Shown piece after piece: positions 32,522-37,355 of a DNA stretch of 64,000 nucleotides; the first letter of the stretch is position 1, and each line of letters begins with the position of its first letter. The stretch is taken from positions 310,001 through 374,000 of the forward strand of contig SAJS01000004.1 of NCBI GenBank assembly GCA_004017535.1. Reading direction: 5' to 3'. The DNA is from Mesorhizobium sp. Lineage in GTDB: Bacteria; Pseudomonadota; Alphaproteobacteria; Rhizobiales; Rhizobiaceae. The notes beneath the pieces are model-generated. The model saw only the letters and a program-made list of their open reading frames with translations, searched no databases and was not told the DNA's origin. The position numbers and the translations under genes are program-made.

Positions 32522-32947
32522 TTATTTCTTGATCGGAAACGTCAGTTCCTGTTGGGAAGTGTCGACGACGAAGACGGCCAGCAGCTTTGCCGGTTTCGTC
32601 TTGCTGGCATTTTCGCTGACGCCATGGCGGTCGCCGGGCATTTCCGAAAAGCTCTCGCCGGCCTTGTAGACTGTAACGGGACCGTCATTGACCTGGCTGC
32701 GGATCTCGCCTTCCAGCACGGTGGCGTAGATGAAGGCGGACTGGGGATGCGTGTGGCCCTCGGAGAAGCCGCCGGGAGCATATTCGACGAGAATGCCTTT
32801 CATGCTTTTGCCAGGCGCGTTCGGCAGTTCATGGTCGTAGACGAGGGCGACCTTTGCGCCTTTACCGCCGCCGGGGGTGTCGTCGGCGAAAGCCGAAGAG
32901 GGCAGAAACGCCGCGAGAATTGCGGCGGCAGCGAGTGACTTGATCAT
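32522..32947 (-). CDS. Secreted cupin-domain protein
   Basis: Small exported protein, 141 aa. The ATG at 32947 is preceded by AAAGGAAA and starts a signal peptide (MIKSLAAAAILAAFLPSSAF, cut after AFA). The cupin metal motif is EGHTHPQSAFIYATVLEGE (His-x-His then Glu), with the second motif around EMPGDRHGVSEN. It lies 52 bp downstream of the NmrA-like gene on the same strand, so it is probably co-transcribed under the Rrf2-type operator pair. Small periplasmic cupins of this type are often stress- or redox-related; the exact function is unknown. Confidence 0.8.
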   Translation of the reverse strand: MIKSLAAAAILAAFLPSSAFADDTPGGGKGAKVALVYDHELPNAPGKSMKGILVEYAPGGFSEGHTHPQSAFIYATVLEGEIRSQVNDGPVTVYKAGESFSEMPGDRHGVSENASKTKPAKLLAVFVVDTSQQELTFPIKK

Positions 32948-32999: not shown

Positions 33000-33752
33000 T
33001 CATTTTTTCGGCTGGGCGGCGAACCACTGATCGAAGCCGACGCGGCCGATGCGGGGGTGGTCGTCGGAAACGAGCGAGCCGTCTTGCAGTCTGGTTCCGA
33101 AATACCGCGCCTCCGGATCGGCTATGACGGTGCGCGTGTCGCCGATCGCCTTGAGGTAGCGGGCGACGAAATCGCAAAGCCGCAGGCGCTCCGGACCGGA
33201 GATCTCGACGATGCCGTTGACCGGCGCGGCAAGAGCGGCGTCCGTCACGAAGTCCGCAACGTCGTCGGAAGCGATCGGCTGAAGATAGCCCGTCGACAGG
33301 CGCATCGTATCGCCGATCGTGCCTTCCTTGGCGATGCCGCCTAGAAACTCGAAGAACTGAGTGGAACGCACGATCGTATAGGGAATGCCGCCTTCCCGGA
33401 TGATCTTTTCTTGAGCGACCTTGGCGCGAAGATAGCCGCTGTCGGGCAATCGGTCCGTCCCGATGATGGACAGCGCGACGTGATGTTTGACGCCAGCGGC
33501 CTTCTCGGCGGCAATCAGGTTCCTCCCCGACGTCTGGAAAAATTCGAGCACGGCCTTGTCCTCGAATGAAGGAGAATTTGCCAGGTCGATAACCACCTCG
33601 GCCCCCGTCAACACAGCAGCCAGTCCCTCGCCGGTAATGGTGTTGACGCCGGTGTTGGGCGAGGCCGCAATCACCGCGTGACCGCGCTTGCGCAGGCGTT
33701 CTGCGGTCTTGGAACCGATCAGGCCGGTTCCCCCGATGATGACAATTTTCAT
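33000..33752 (-). CDS. NmrA-like NAD(P)-binding reductase
   Basis: Atypical SDR of the NmrA/NAD(P)H-binding group, 250 aa. It begins MKIVIIGGTGLIGSKTAERL with the GGTGLIG cofactor loop, followed by an extended-SDR-like SGYLRAKVAQEKIIREGG and IVRSTQFFEFLGGIAKEG. The ATG at 33752 begins exactly at the Rossmann strand; a longer frame to 33785 adds 11 residues and was not used. Two overlapping 23-bp inverted repeats (33853-33894) lie about 100 bp upstream, and an Rrf2 gene is nearby, so redox control is likely. Such reductases reduce quinones or act as redox sensors; the substrate is unknown. Confidence 0.85.
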   Translation of the reverse strand: MKIVIIGGTGLIGSKTAERLRKRGHAVIAASPNTGVNTITGEGLAAVLTGAEVVIDLANSPSFEDKAVLEFFQTSGRNLIAAEKAAGVKHHVALSIIGTDRLPDSGYLRAKVAQEKIIREGGIPYTIVRSTQFFEFLGGIAKEGTIGDTMRLSTGYLQPIASDDVADFVTDAALAAPVNGIVEISGPERLRLCDFVARYLKAIGDTRTVIADPEARYFGTRLQDGSLVSDDHPRIGRVGFDQWFAAQPKK

Positions 33753-33852
33753 GTGATGACTCCGTTTGCGCCGCTCTTGCGGCACGCTCCTTGTTCGATG
33801 GTTCGTCAGGGCGAGCGGCCTGATCGGTCGATCATAACCAGCCTTTCCTTTA

Positions 33853-33894
33853 TTAAGGATATCAGATATCCTTAAGGATGGATAATATCCTTAA
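33853..33894. promoter_or_regulatory. Tandem overlapping Rrf2-type operators
   Basis: Two 23-bp sites sharing four bases. Site 1 (33853-33875) is perfectly palindromic: TTAAGGATATC, A, GATATCCTTAA. Site 2 (33872-33894) is TTAAGGAT-N7-ATCCTTAA. They lie in the 213-bp region between the NmrA-like gene (minus) and the MscS gene (plus). A third copy with the same spacing precedes the Rrf2 gene at 35459. Regulator assignment is by position and by shared motif. Confidence 0.75.
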
Positions 33895-33965
33895 TTGCCG
33901 AAGTGTAAAGCCCCTCTGTGTTGAGCGGCGCGCTTCGAGCTTGAGCAGTTTCAGCAGAGGGTTCG

Positions 33966-34955
33966 ATGCCGCTTGTCCTGACCAACATCCTCGGAATCGC
34001 GGGTATCGTCGTCTGGCACCTCCAGGGCAGCAGCCGCCCGACAGGTCGGCTGATCGTCCAGATCCTTTTCTTTGTCGGGATGAGTTCGGTGCTCTATCTG
34101 GGCGGCATCTCTCCGCAGCATGTCGACGACACCGAGCTGCGGGGCTTCGTCGCGCTGCTCGCCAAATCGGCCATGATCCTGTGGTGGACGCACCTGGCAT
34201 GGACGACTATTGGCCTGGTCCACTTCTTGCTGATGCTCAAGCGCGGGCCGCGGGAAGCGCATCTCGTCCAGGATATGGCCGTCGGCGTCATCTATCCCGG
34301 CGTGGCGCTATCCATCATAGGCTTCGTTTTCGGCGTGCCGGTCGGCACTTTGGTCGCAACCTCGGGCATCGTCGCGATCGTATTCGGCCTCGCCTTGCAA
34401 AACACTTTGGGCGATGTCTTCTCGGGCATCGCGCTGACGCTTGGCAGGACTTATGCGATAGGCGACTGGATCCAGTTGAAGGATGGCGCGGAAGGCCGTG
34501 TCATCGAAACCAATTGGCGCTCCGCCAAACTGCTCACCGCGCAGTATAATGTCGTGGTGGTGCCGAACAGCGTGCTGGCCAGGCAAGCGGTGACCAATCT
34601 CAGCCGTCCCGACGACACGCGCCAGATCACATTGGGCGTGCGCATCGCCCTCGCAACGCCGACTTTTGTCGAACAGGTGATGTGGTCCGTGCTTGATGGC
34701 AGCGCGCGGATCGTCAAAGACCCGCCGCCATTTGTTGTTTTGAAAACGATCGATGCGGTCGCGATCGAAGTCGACTTGCTGTTCCGCATCACAGACCCCG
34801 CCGATTGGGCAACGGCCCGCAACGAAATCATCGGCCTCCTCTACAGCCACTGCAAGGCAAAAGGCCTTTCGTTCGCCGCACCGGCGGAAAGCCTCGTCTT
34901 CGACATGGCCGCGATGGCTCAGGGTATCGATGCGCGTTCATCCAGCGCGGCCTAA
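33966..34955 (+). CDS. Mechanosensitive ion channel, MscS family
   Basis: Membrane channel of 329 aa that opens under membrane tension to release solutes. About four hydrophobic segments precede the pore-lining helix and beta domain: VATSGIVAIVFGLALQNTLG, then DVFSGIALTLGRTYAIGDWI, the hallmark of MscS. The cytoplasmic part runs from QLKDGAEGRVIETNWRSA and VVPNSVLARQAVTNLS to about residue 310. AGAGGG lies 5 nt before the ATG. It is divergent from the NmrA-like gene across the tandem Rrf2-type operators, which start 72 bp upstream of the ATG. Its stop overlaps the convergent Rrf2 gene by 18 bp. Confidence 0.9.
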   Translation: MPLVLTNILGIAGIVVWHLQGSSRPTGRLIVQILFFVGMSSVLYLGGISPQHVDDTELRGFVALLAKSAMILWWTHLAWTTIGLVHFLLMLKRGPREAHLVQDMAVGVIYPGVALSIIGFVFGVPVGTLVATSGIVAIVFGLALQNTLGDVFSGIALTLGRTYAIGDWIQLKDGAEGRVIETNWRSAKLLTAQYNVVVVPNSVLARQAVTNLSRPDDTRQITLGVRIALATPTFVEQVMWSVLDGSARIVKDPPPFVVLKTIDAVAIEVDLLFRITDPADWATARNEIIGLLYSHCKAKGLSFAAPAESLVFDMAAMAQGIDARSSSAA

Positions 34956-35426
34956 CACCCACGCGAAAGTGTCCTTCCAGAGCTTTGCGGGGGTTTCCCG
35001 CACGAGCATGCGCTCGAGATCCGAGAGTGTGACGCTGCGCAGTTTTTCACGCCAGGCTTCGTCGGCCTCCCACATGATGCGCGCGACGGCGCACGGACCG
35101 CTGTAGCAATAGTCGTCGGGCAGGCAAGGATTGTTCGTGCGGATATTGTTGCACACGAAGGTGCGCGTCTCGCCTTCCACTGCCTCGACGATGTCCAGGA
35201 AAGTCACCTGCCCCGGCGACTTTGCAAGGCGGTATCCGCCCGATGGACCCAGGGTCGTATCGACGAGCCCCGCCTGCGACAGGCTCTGCAATGCCTTGGA
35301 GAGATATTCTTTCGGAAGTCCATGGAGTTCCGCCAGCGCCTTGGTGGACAGATAGCGCCCCTCAGGCAGACCGGAGAGAATGGCGCAGCAATGCAGCGCC
35401 CATTCAACCTGGCTTTTCAAAATCAT
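34938..35426 (-). CDS. Rrf2-family transcriptional regulator
   Basis: Winged-helix regulator, 162 aa. The N-terminal HTH is YLSTKALAELHGLPKEYLSK (25-44), followed by the wing GLVDTTLGPSGGYRLA. Cysteines 92, 101, 107 and 112 form a C-x8-C-x5-C-x4-C cluster where IscR, NsrR and RirA bind an iron-sulfur cluster; Cys13 and Cys14 are additional. It may therefore sense NO, iron or redox state, although the spacing differs from the textbook three-Cys set. A 23-bp operator-like repeat lies at 35459-35481, 33 bp upstream, implying autoregulation. It overlaps the convergent MscS gene by 18 bp. Confidence 0.9.
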   Translation of the reverse strand: MILKSQVEWALHCCAILSGLPEGRYLSTKALAELHGLPKEYLSKALQSLSQAGLVDTTLGPSGGYRLAKSPGQVTFLDIVEAVEGETRTFVCNNIRTNNPCLPDDYCYSGPCAVARIMWEADEAWREKLRSVTLSDLERMLVRETPAKLWKDTFAWVLGRAG

Positions 35427-35458
35427 AGTCTTTTCCGGGAACGACCGATCACCGCATA

Positions 35459-35481
35459 TTAAGGATAAATAATATCCCTAT
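35459..35481. promoter_or_regulatory. Rrf2-type operator upstream of the Rrf2 gene
   Basis: TTAAGGAT-N7-ATCCCTAT, the same 23-bp layout as the two sites at 33853-33894. It lies between the divergent Rrf2 gene (start 35426) and the small secreted protein (start 35586), so it could control both. Confidence 0.72.
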
Positions 35482-35585
35482 TATAGCACTGTGTAAACAT
35501 CGAGGGCGTAAGAGGACTGCGATGGGGGAACCATCACCGGGCCCCGGGGTTGTGTCGTCAGATTTCGAGATCGAAAGGAAAGACG

Positions 35586-35996
35586 ATGCGCACCTTGACG
35601 ATGGTCCTGATGCTGTCGGCCATGGCCTTGGCGCAGCCCGCTTCTGCTCAACGCGCCGATCCGCAGCCGCCGCAAGCCCCGCCTCCTGCCCAGGAGCCCA
35701 TCCCAGGCCAGCCGCAGTCCGGCCAACCACAACCAGGCCAGGAAGATGCCGCCCAGAACGTAACCAACATCGTCGTGGTGGCGATGGAGGACTTGCCTTC
35801 GGAAGTGAAGGCGCAGGCGGAGGCCATAGTCACCAGGACGACTGCCAAGGAGCTGGCCAAGCTGCAGAGCTCGGTCGATGCCTCACCCGAGGCGACGTCG
35901 GTCCTGCATGCGAACGGGCTGAATTCATCGCAGGTCATTGCAGCCAACATCGACGGTGACGGCACGCTGACGCTGATCATTCAGACGACGGCCTGA
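35586..35996 (+). CDS. Small secreted Pro/Gln-rich protein, unknown function
   Basis: Exported protein of 136 aa that I do not recognise as a named family. The ATG at 35586 follows AAGGAAAG and opens a signal peptide (MRTLTMVLMLSAMALAQPAS, cleaved near ASA). Residues ~22-55 are a proline- and glutamine-rich linker (QPPQAPPPAQEPIPGQPQSG and more). The C-terminal ~80 residues appear folded (NVTNIVVVAMEDLPSEVKAQ, then helices, ending TLTLIIQTTA). It is divergent from the Rrf2 gene with an Rrf2-type operator between them, so it is probably in the same regulon. A dispersed repeat directly follows its stop. Confidence 0.78.
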   Translation: MRTLTMVLMLSAMALAQPASAQRADPQPPQAPPPAQEPIPGQPQSGQPQPGQEDAAQNVTNIVVVAMEDLPSEVKAQAEAIVTRTTAKELAKLQSSVDASPEATSVLHANGLNSSQVIAANIDGDGTLTLIIQTTA

Positions 35997-36164: not shown

Positions 36165-37355
36165 ATGACCGAAGCCGCAGTCCGCAACTTCACCCTGAAT
36201 TTCGGGCCGCAGCACCCGTCCGCGCATGGCGTTCTGCGGCTGGTGCTGGAATTGGACGGCGAGATCGTCGACCGCGCCGATCCGCATATCGGCCTGCTCC
36301 ATCGCGGCACCGAGAAGCTGATCGAATACAAGAATTACCTGCAGGCCCTGCCCTATTTCGACCGGCTCGATTATGTCGCGCCGATGAACCAGGAGCATGC
36401 CTTCTGCCTTGCCGCCGAAAAGCTGCTGGAGATATCGGTTCCCCGGCGCGGGCAACTGATCCGCGTGCTGTTCTGCGAGATCGGGCGGCTCCTGTCGCAT
36501 CTTCTCAACGTCACCACGCAGGCCATGGATATCGGCGCTTTGACCCCGCCCCTCTGGGGCTTCGCCGAGCGCGAGAAGCTTATGGTGTTTTATGAACGCG
36601 CATCCGGCGCCCGCATGCACGCCAATTATTTCCGCGTCGGCGGCGTGCACCAGGATCTGCCGGAAGAGTTGCTCGACGACATCTGGAATTTCTGCGATCC
36701 GTTCCTGAAGGTCTGCGACAATCTCGAAGGCCTGCTTACCGACAACCGCATTTTCAAGCAGCGCAACGTCGATATCGGCGCGATCTCGCTCGATGACGCA
36801 TGGGCCCTGGGTTTCTCCGGACCCATGGTGCGCGGCTCAGGCGCCGCCTGGGACCTTCGCAAGGCGCAGCCCTATGAATGCTATCCCGAGATGGAGTTCG
36901 ATATCCCGGTCGGCAAGAACGGCGACTGCTACGACCGCTATCTGGTACGCATGGAAGAGATGCGCCAGTCGGTGCGCATCATGCGGCAGTGCCTGGAGAA
37001 GCTGCGCTCACCCGATGGCCAGGGTCCGGTCGCGGTGGCCAATCAGAAGATCACGCCGCCGCCGCGCGCCACCATGAAGCGCTCCATGGAAGCGACCATC
37101 CATCATTTCAAGCTTTATACCGAAGGCCACCGCGTGCCGCGTGGCGAGGTCTACGCCGCGGTTGAGGCGCCGAAGGGCGAGTTCGGCGTCTATCTCGTCT
37201 CCGACGGCGGCAACATTCCCTACCGCTGCAAGATACGGGCGCCATCCTTCGCCCATCTGCAGGCGATGGATTTCCTGTCGCGCGGGCACATGGTGGCGGA
37301 TGTCGCGGCGATCATCGGTTCGCTCGACATCGTGTTCGGCGAGATCGACCGCTAG
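36165..37355 (+). CDS. nuoD2: NADH-quinone oxidoreductase subunit D, second copy
   Basis: 49-kDa subunit of respiratory complex I, peripheral arm, near the quinone site; 396 aa, normal length. Diagnostic segments are [20 protein letters not shown] (9-28), [38 protein letters not shown] and the C-terminal [16 protein letters not shown] lies ahead of the ATG. No other nuo gene is present, while the main nuo operon of Rhizobiales carries its own nuoD. A free-standing second nuoD is known in rhizobia. Whether it replaces or competes with the main subunit cannot be told from sequence. Confidence 0.93.

Follow-up and report, generated by a model that had tools for sequence, protein, structure and literature searches.

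A probable RsrR-type regulator with a fixed overlapping operator pair, predicted to control a small local regulon in Mesorhizobium and its relatives

The closest described counterpart of the locus reported here is RsrR of Streptomyces venezuelae. In this regulator a [2Fe-2S] cluster is held by two cysteines from one subunit and by a glutamate and a histidine from the other, and Trp9 shifts upon reduction (PMC11138216). The oxidised form binds DNA, the reduced form does so weakly and the apo-protein does not; RsrR represses an NmrA-family gene, and probably itself too, using a pair of sites within a single intergenic region (PMC5015018). Similar classes of target gene accompany the ECF41 sigma factors, which occur with COE genes (carboxymuconolactone decarboxylase, or CMD; oxidoreductase; epimerase/NmrA), that is, with CMD and NmrA genes and in a few cases a cupin, and which likewise have a single local target operon (PMC3426412). 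The Rrf2 proteins NsrR, RirA and IscR share with the regulator described below the Rrf2 fold and a loop with cysteines, and the cluster ligands of NsrR are Cys93, Cys99, Cys105 and Asp8 (PMC9338935).

The regulator type and its NmrA-family target are already known from Streptomyces; what is new is the operator layout and the predicted regulon. Among the matches listed in a search of the open-licence literature, there was no rhizobial RsrR regulon and no Rrf2 control of MscS, and likewise no overlapping 10-3-10 pair with a fixed 19-bp offset and no added invariant Cys101.

The locus lies in a Mesorhizobium genome, within a window (the whole stretch of DNA that was analysed) of 64,000 nucleotides. 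A sequence-only reading of this window had reported three copies of a 23-bp operator, two of them overlapping between an NmrA-like gene and mscS and the third between an rrf2 gene and a gene for a small secreted protein. The three operators are confirmed, and the gene layout agrees with that description:

32522..32947, minus strand: cupin_2 protein, second gene of the operon; its N terminus resembles a signal peptide by eye
33000..33752, minus strand: NmrA-like NAD(P)-binding protein, first operon gene in the window
33853..33875, no strand assigned: operator 1, the member of the overlapping pair nearer to NmrA; a perfect palindrome (11-1-11)
33872..33894, no strand assigned: operator 2, the half of the pair that lies upstream as seen from NmrA; it holds the predicted NmrA -10 box
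33882..33909, minus strand: predicted NmrA-cupin promoter, TTTACA-N16-TATTAT, with its -10 inside operator 2
33966..34955, plus strand: MscS-like channel (MS_channel_2nd), facing away from NmrA on the other side of the pair; most relatives have it as a downstream gene of that operon
34938..35426, minus strand: rrf2, encoding P0001 (162 aa), the predicted RsrR-type regulator, with E8, W9, H12, C92, C101, C107 and C112
35459..35481, no strand assigned: operator 3, predicted to be autoregulatory; on the strand of rrf2 its imperfect half reads ATAGGGAT
35469..35497, minus strand: predicted rrf2 promoter, TTTACA-N17-TATTAT, with its -10 inside operator 3
35586..35996, plus strand: small proline-rich, secreted-looking protein (P0005) adjoining the rrf2 region; no Pfam match
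36165-37355: nuoD-like gene (Complex I 49 kDa), after the secreted-protein gene

The nuoD-like gene has a second full-length match in the genome at C22 and a partial match at C11.

P0001 scores above the cut-offs of two Rrf2 models, PF02082 (108.3 bits, cut-off 30) and TIGR00738 (95.5, cut-off 73.3). Its best sequence match in the PDB is RsrR of S. venezuelae (6hsd, E 1.5e-30), followed by the RsrR H33A variant (6y45) and then by IscR as the next Rrf2 protein (4cic, 4.1e-9). A fold search with an AlphaFold2 model of P0001 (monomer, 18 sequences, mean pLDDT 81.7, with a poor cluster loop in which residues 90-94 are under 50) placed RsrR chains at all of ranks 1 to 11, and the nearest solved relative is RsrR by both sequence and fold. 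Conversely, the NCBIfam equivalog cut-offs for NsrR (41.6 of 182), RirA (39.8 of 193) and IscR (32.2 of 207.55) were not reached. The rrf2 product is probably an RsrR-type iron-sulphur redox repressor.

Residue conservation points the same way. E8, W9, H12, C92 and C112 are invariant in all 81 members of a set comprising the window protein and 80 orthologues (pairwise identity at least 72%). In an alignment with RsrR, the P0001 residues opposite the [2Fe-2S] ligands (Glu8, His12, Cys90 and Cys110 in RsrR) are a Glu, a His and two Cys, and Trp9 is shared as well; H35, likewise conserved, aligns with the His33 that is altered in RsrR structure 6y45. The C-x8-C-x5-C-x4-C spacing noted in the sequence-only reading is real (C92, C101, C107, C112), and within the clade C101 is invariant too (81/81) and C107 is Cys in 80/81, the exception being orthologue L088, which has Arg. 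RsrR carries Leu at the C101 column and, at the C107 column, a Lys adjoining a Cys.

Beyond the clade, we compared 36 divergent homologues, namely those from phylum and family searches whose locus was fetched; because P0001 itself was the search query, this set leans towards RsrR-like proteins, and in it E8 is kept in 35, H12 in 36, C92 in 36 and C112 in 35. The single losses of E8 and of C112 fall in the same homologue (L144), which has Lys at position 8 and whose aligned protein stops before 112. Cys occupies the C101 position in just 2 of these proteins and the C107 position in 1, and Trp is found at position 9 in 2. Taken alone, the four-cysteine spacing is misleading, since two of its members, C101 and C107, are additions peculiar to this lineage, and an unfamiliar four-cysteine sensor was rejected on the ground that neither is kept outside the clade (2/36 and 1/36). 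The ligand-like residues that are conserved widely are those of RsrR. The earlier suggestion of a sensor of unfamiliar type did not survive this comparison, since the conserved Glu8, Trp9, His12, Cys92 and Cys112 make up the [2Fe-2S] RsrR set in a protein for which RsrR is the best match by sequence and by fold.

Operators 1 and 2 have one TTAA in common, lie 19 bp apart centre to centre and overlap by 4 bp; operator 1 is the perfect 23-bp palindrome that had been claimed. With up to 3 mismatches allowed, TTAAGGATN7ATCCYTAW gave 6 strand-wise matches in the 64-kb window, all of them at the three operators, compared with a mean of 0.18 and a largest count of 2 when the same scan was run on 100 shuffles. 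A genome-wide motif scan, which the sequence-only reading had proposed as a check, found exact matches to the relaxed motif WARGGATN7ATCCYTW at the three operators only (whole genome, 6,863,758 bases). At 2 mismatches the genome held 63 matches versus 62 for a reversed control pattern, so that no additional regulon member stands out; a wider regulon was rejected on this total count. The two one-mismatch matches (L006 and L007) were set aside as candidate members, since both fall in open reading frames (180 and 384 codons between stops) and have no ATAT core. Interpreting the pair as a hairpin or cruciform was also dropped: single-stranded DNA folding gave a z of -2.78, a value equalled or bettered by 4 of 200 shuffles, as is expected of palindromes.

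The operators coincide with predicted promoter elements. A sigma-70 consensus scan of 33700-35620 yielded two predicted promoters in all (shuffles: mean 0.7, sd 0.8), those of rrf2 and NmrA-cupin, each with its -10 box central in an operator; both predicted promoters are thereby overlapped. No plus-strand sigma-70-like promoter for mscS or for the secreted protein was found in this interval. TTTAC[AT] stands at the same distance before rrf2 in 76/80 relatives and before the operon in 49/63; at the operon pair, 12/63 relatives have no TTTAC[AT] within 30 bp upstream and 2/63 have it elsewhere. The position of the predicted -10 boxes inside the operators implies repression by blocking of RNA polymerase.

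To follow the operators through related genomes we used the best 80 of 182 orthologue loci, which come mostly from Rhizobium, Mesorhizobium, Ensifer and relatives, and also from Labrys, Pleomorphomonas, Nguyenibacter, Rudaea and two proteobacterial MAGs. The overlapping pair at the 19-bp offset is present at 80/80 of them (one with one mismatch to the degenerate pattern). At 63 loci the degenerate pair pattern lies within the fetched locus DNA. At the remaining 17 the fetched DNA stops short of the operon promoter or within it, and their genomes were searched instead: the pattern was found in 16, each time beside a CMD gene (16/16), and the seventeenth is the one with a single mismatch; by their coordinates, all 17 pairs coincide with the end of the fetched locus or lie no more than about 500 bp from it. 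Wherever adjacent sites (up to 3 mismatches) were closer than 200 bp, they were 19 bp apart (60/60). Upstream of rrf2, the best site ends 19-47 bp before the start codon in the 81 sequences that include the window. This autosite is within 3 mismatches of the full consensus in 74/80 relatives and exceeds that number in 6/80, compared with 1 of 1600 mononucleotide-shuffled upstream regions. The consensus autoregulatory site (L024-L103) has an imperfect left half, ATAGGGAT instead of TTAAGGAT, possibly reflecting weaker self-repression or promoter function.

Among 151 genomes of the family, the exact pair occurs in 9 and a control pattern in 0. Of the genomes that carry an orthologue at 70% identity or above, 9/10 have the pair, against 0/141 of those lacking one (Fisher p 1.1e-13), which upholds the earlier linking of the motif to the Rrf2 gene; the tenth genome (G392) has a diverged pair, its offset unchanged, ahead of the CMD gene. 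When 8 more genomes were searched, pairs turned up in G248, whose orthologue is at 75%, and in G281. The distribution is patchy, with a close orthologue in 2/8 same-genus genomes, own genome included. At the loci of the divergent homologues, neither the pair nor a site within 2 mismatches was found (0/36).

The usual operon in relatives is AhpD/CMD–(MBL)–NmrA–cupin–mscS, convergent with rrf2. In most of them the pair lies ~14 bp before the AhpD/CMD-family gene (PF02627); in some, CMD is followed by a metallo-beta-lactamase-fold (MBL) gene, and then come NmrA, cupin and mscS. By tblastn (E up to 1e-6), CMD is present at 72 of the 80 loci, NmrA at 78, cupin at 76 and mscS at 70 (absent at 10), and at 65 of them mscS follows NmrA or cupin in the same orientation. 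Five close relatives and the window have no CMD at the locus, and there NmrA-cupin and mscS diverge from either side of the pair; in the own genome the best matches to CMD are elsewhere, at 47% identity or less. The simplest reading of the window arrangement is an inversion with CMD loss that left mscS beside the pair, and the divergent orientation of mscS and NmrA here is probably the product of such a rearrangement.

The regulon looks compact and local. The sequence-only reading had assigned to it rrf2, NmrA-cupin, mscS and the secreted protein. The first two are retained on promoter overlap and mscS on comparative evidence (70/80 loci), which also underlies its predicted control in this genome, as no mscS promoter was found in the window. 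The secreted protein P0005, with its gene at 5/80 orthologue loci and no plus-strand promoter, was rejected as a member.

The interpretation that we favour, at a probability of roughly 0.8, is that an RsrR-type [2Fe-2S] repressor binds operators over the -10 boxes of its own promoter and of a detoxification operon, and that reduction or loss of the cluster derepresses rrf2, NmrA-cupin and mscS. Computation establishes the operators, how they are conserved and go together with the gene, where they overlap predicted -10 boxes, and that the RsrR ligands are retained; we infer DNA binding, the cluster type, the direction of the switch and the control of mscS in this genome. In such a circuit, rrf2 would encode an RsrR-type [2Fe-2S] redox repressor acting as a dimer on TTAAGGATAT-N3-ATATCCTTAA operators, one of which would cover the rrf2 -10 box and two of which, overlapping by 4 bp and 19 bp apart, would cover the -10 box of the small operon. 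Bound dimers would mask the -10 and start regions and exclude RNA polymerase; reduction or loss of the cluster would then release the protein and turn on rrf2, NmrA-cupin and mscS. This direction of the switch is proposed by analogy with RsrR (PMC5015018). To judge by the AhpD-like, NmrA and cupin genes, the context could be stress from electrophiles, quinones or peroxides.

The regulator might instead be an NsrR/RirA-like [4Fe-4S] sensor that responds to NO or iron through C92, C101 and C107 together with E8. Its C-x8-C-x5-C does resemble the three-cysteine pattern of NsrR and of RirA, whose cysteine spacing is similar, and the conservation of C101 (81/81) and C107 (80/81) in the clade would suit such a sensor. 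However, P0001 falls far below the cut-offs of the NsrR and RirA models, RsrR outscores NsrR by far in the PDB search, and the divergent homologues keep H12 and C112 rather than C101 and C107, the latter being Arg even in orthologue L088. Moreover, H12 and C112 match RsrR and not the ligand set of NsrR (PMC9338935), and we judge a [4Fe-4S] sensor of this kind to be very improbable. We attach next to no weight to a different regulator binding the operators, with the Rrf2 gene a mere neighbour: the operator-Rrf2 pairing is itself a prediction, but the site in the rrf2 promoter recurs at 74/80 loci (up to 3 mismatches), the pair tracks the orthologue through 151 genomes, and divergent homologues with similar neighbours are without the motif (0/36, pair or site within 2 mismatches).

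A more substantial doubt concerns the channel. The regulator could be real and mscS a passenger gene outside the control of the pair in this genome, as the missing plus-strand sigma-70-like promoter at the pair and the 10/80 loci without mscS would allow. Against this, mscS is co-directional and downstream in the operon at 65/80 loci, and the cases in which it abuts the pair (5/80 and the window) look like an inversion with CMD loss. We consider a passenger role unlikely, though deserving of real weight.

Set beside RsrR, the RsrR-type repressor that we propose conserves the Glu, Trp9, His and two Cys of the cluster and switch, and its predicted targets include an NmrA-family gene. The two systems differ in their operators: RsrR sites are 11-3-11, a trait of the S. 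venezuelae operators and not one that defines the protein, whereas those described here are about 10-3-10 (columns of 63 pairs), and the sites in the RsrR promoter are 1 bp apart, whereas the pair here overlaps by 4 bp. They differ also in scale (630 ChIP-exo sites for RsrR, three exact sites in this genome), in the extra invariant C101 and in the predicted regulon, which in relatives includes CMD, MBL, cupin and MscS genes. Compared with the ECF41 systems, the target gene classes are similar but the predicted control differs, with an alternative sigma factor there and an iron-sulphur repressor here.

With these findings, redox regulation of the RsrR type, known from Streptomyces, would reach rhizobia as well, in the form of a small and clearly bounded regulon. 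Such a regulon would ease the search for the natural signal of the RsrR type, a question left open in the available part of the 2016 RsrR paper. That an MscS-like channel recurs in a detoxification operon with predicted redox control makes it possible to test whether redox state is tied to membrane tension or efflux, and the overlapping pair, with its fixed 19-bp offset, lends itself well to studies of DNA sharing by two Rrf2 dimers.

C101, invariant in the clade and absent from RsrR and from 34/36 divergent homologues, raises the possibility that this clade adds other chemistry. One speculative extension, which we regard as quite unlikely, is a two-input redox switch in which an RsrR-type [2Fe-2S] cluster and C101 (giving a second response, by its thiol or by an alternative cluster) would act on the fixed compound operator, with two dimers sharing one TTAA, and would make the level of the mechanosensitive channel depend on redox or electrophile stress, perhaps venting adducts or osmolytes during detoxification.

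The same genome encodes a second RsrR-type regulator (C22:532632-533054; L104, L143), in which E8, H12 and two ligand-like Cys are conserved. This paralogue adjoins CMD and DoxX genes, and the TTAAGGAT operator was not found for it. Elsewhere in this genome (C72:129728-130153, L105), a CMD gene stands beside a gene for a sigma-70 region 2/4 protein; this sigma factor has a weak C-terminal SnoaL_2 match, below the Pfam cut-off, and is ECF41-COE-like by resemblance only. More broadly, a CMD gene lies near 25 of the 36 divergent homologues.
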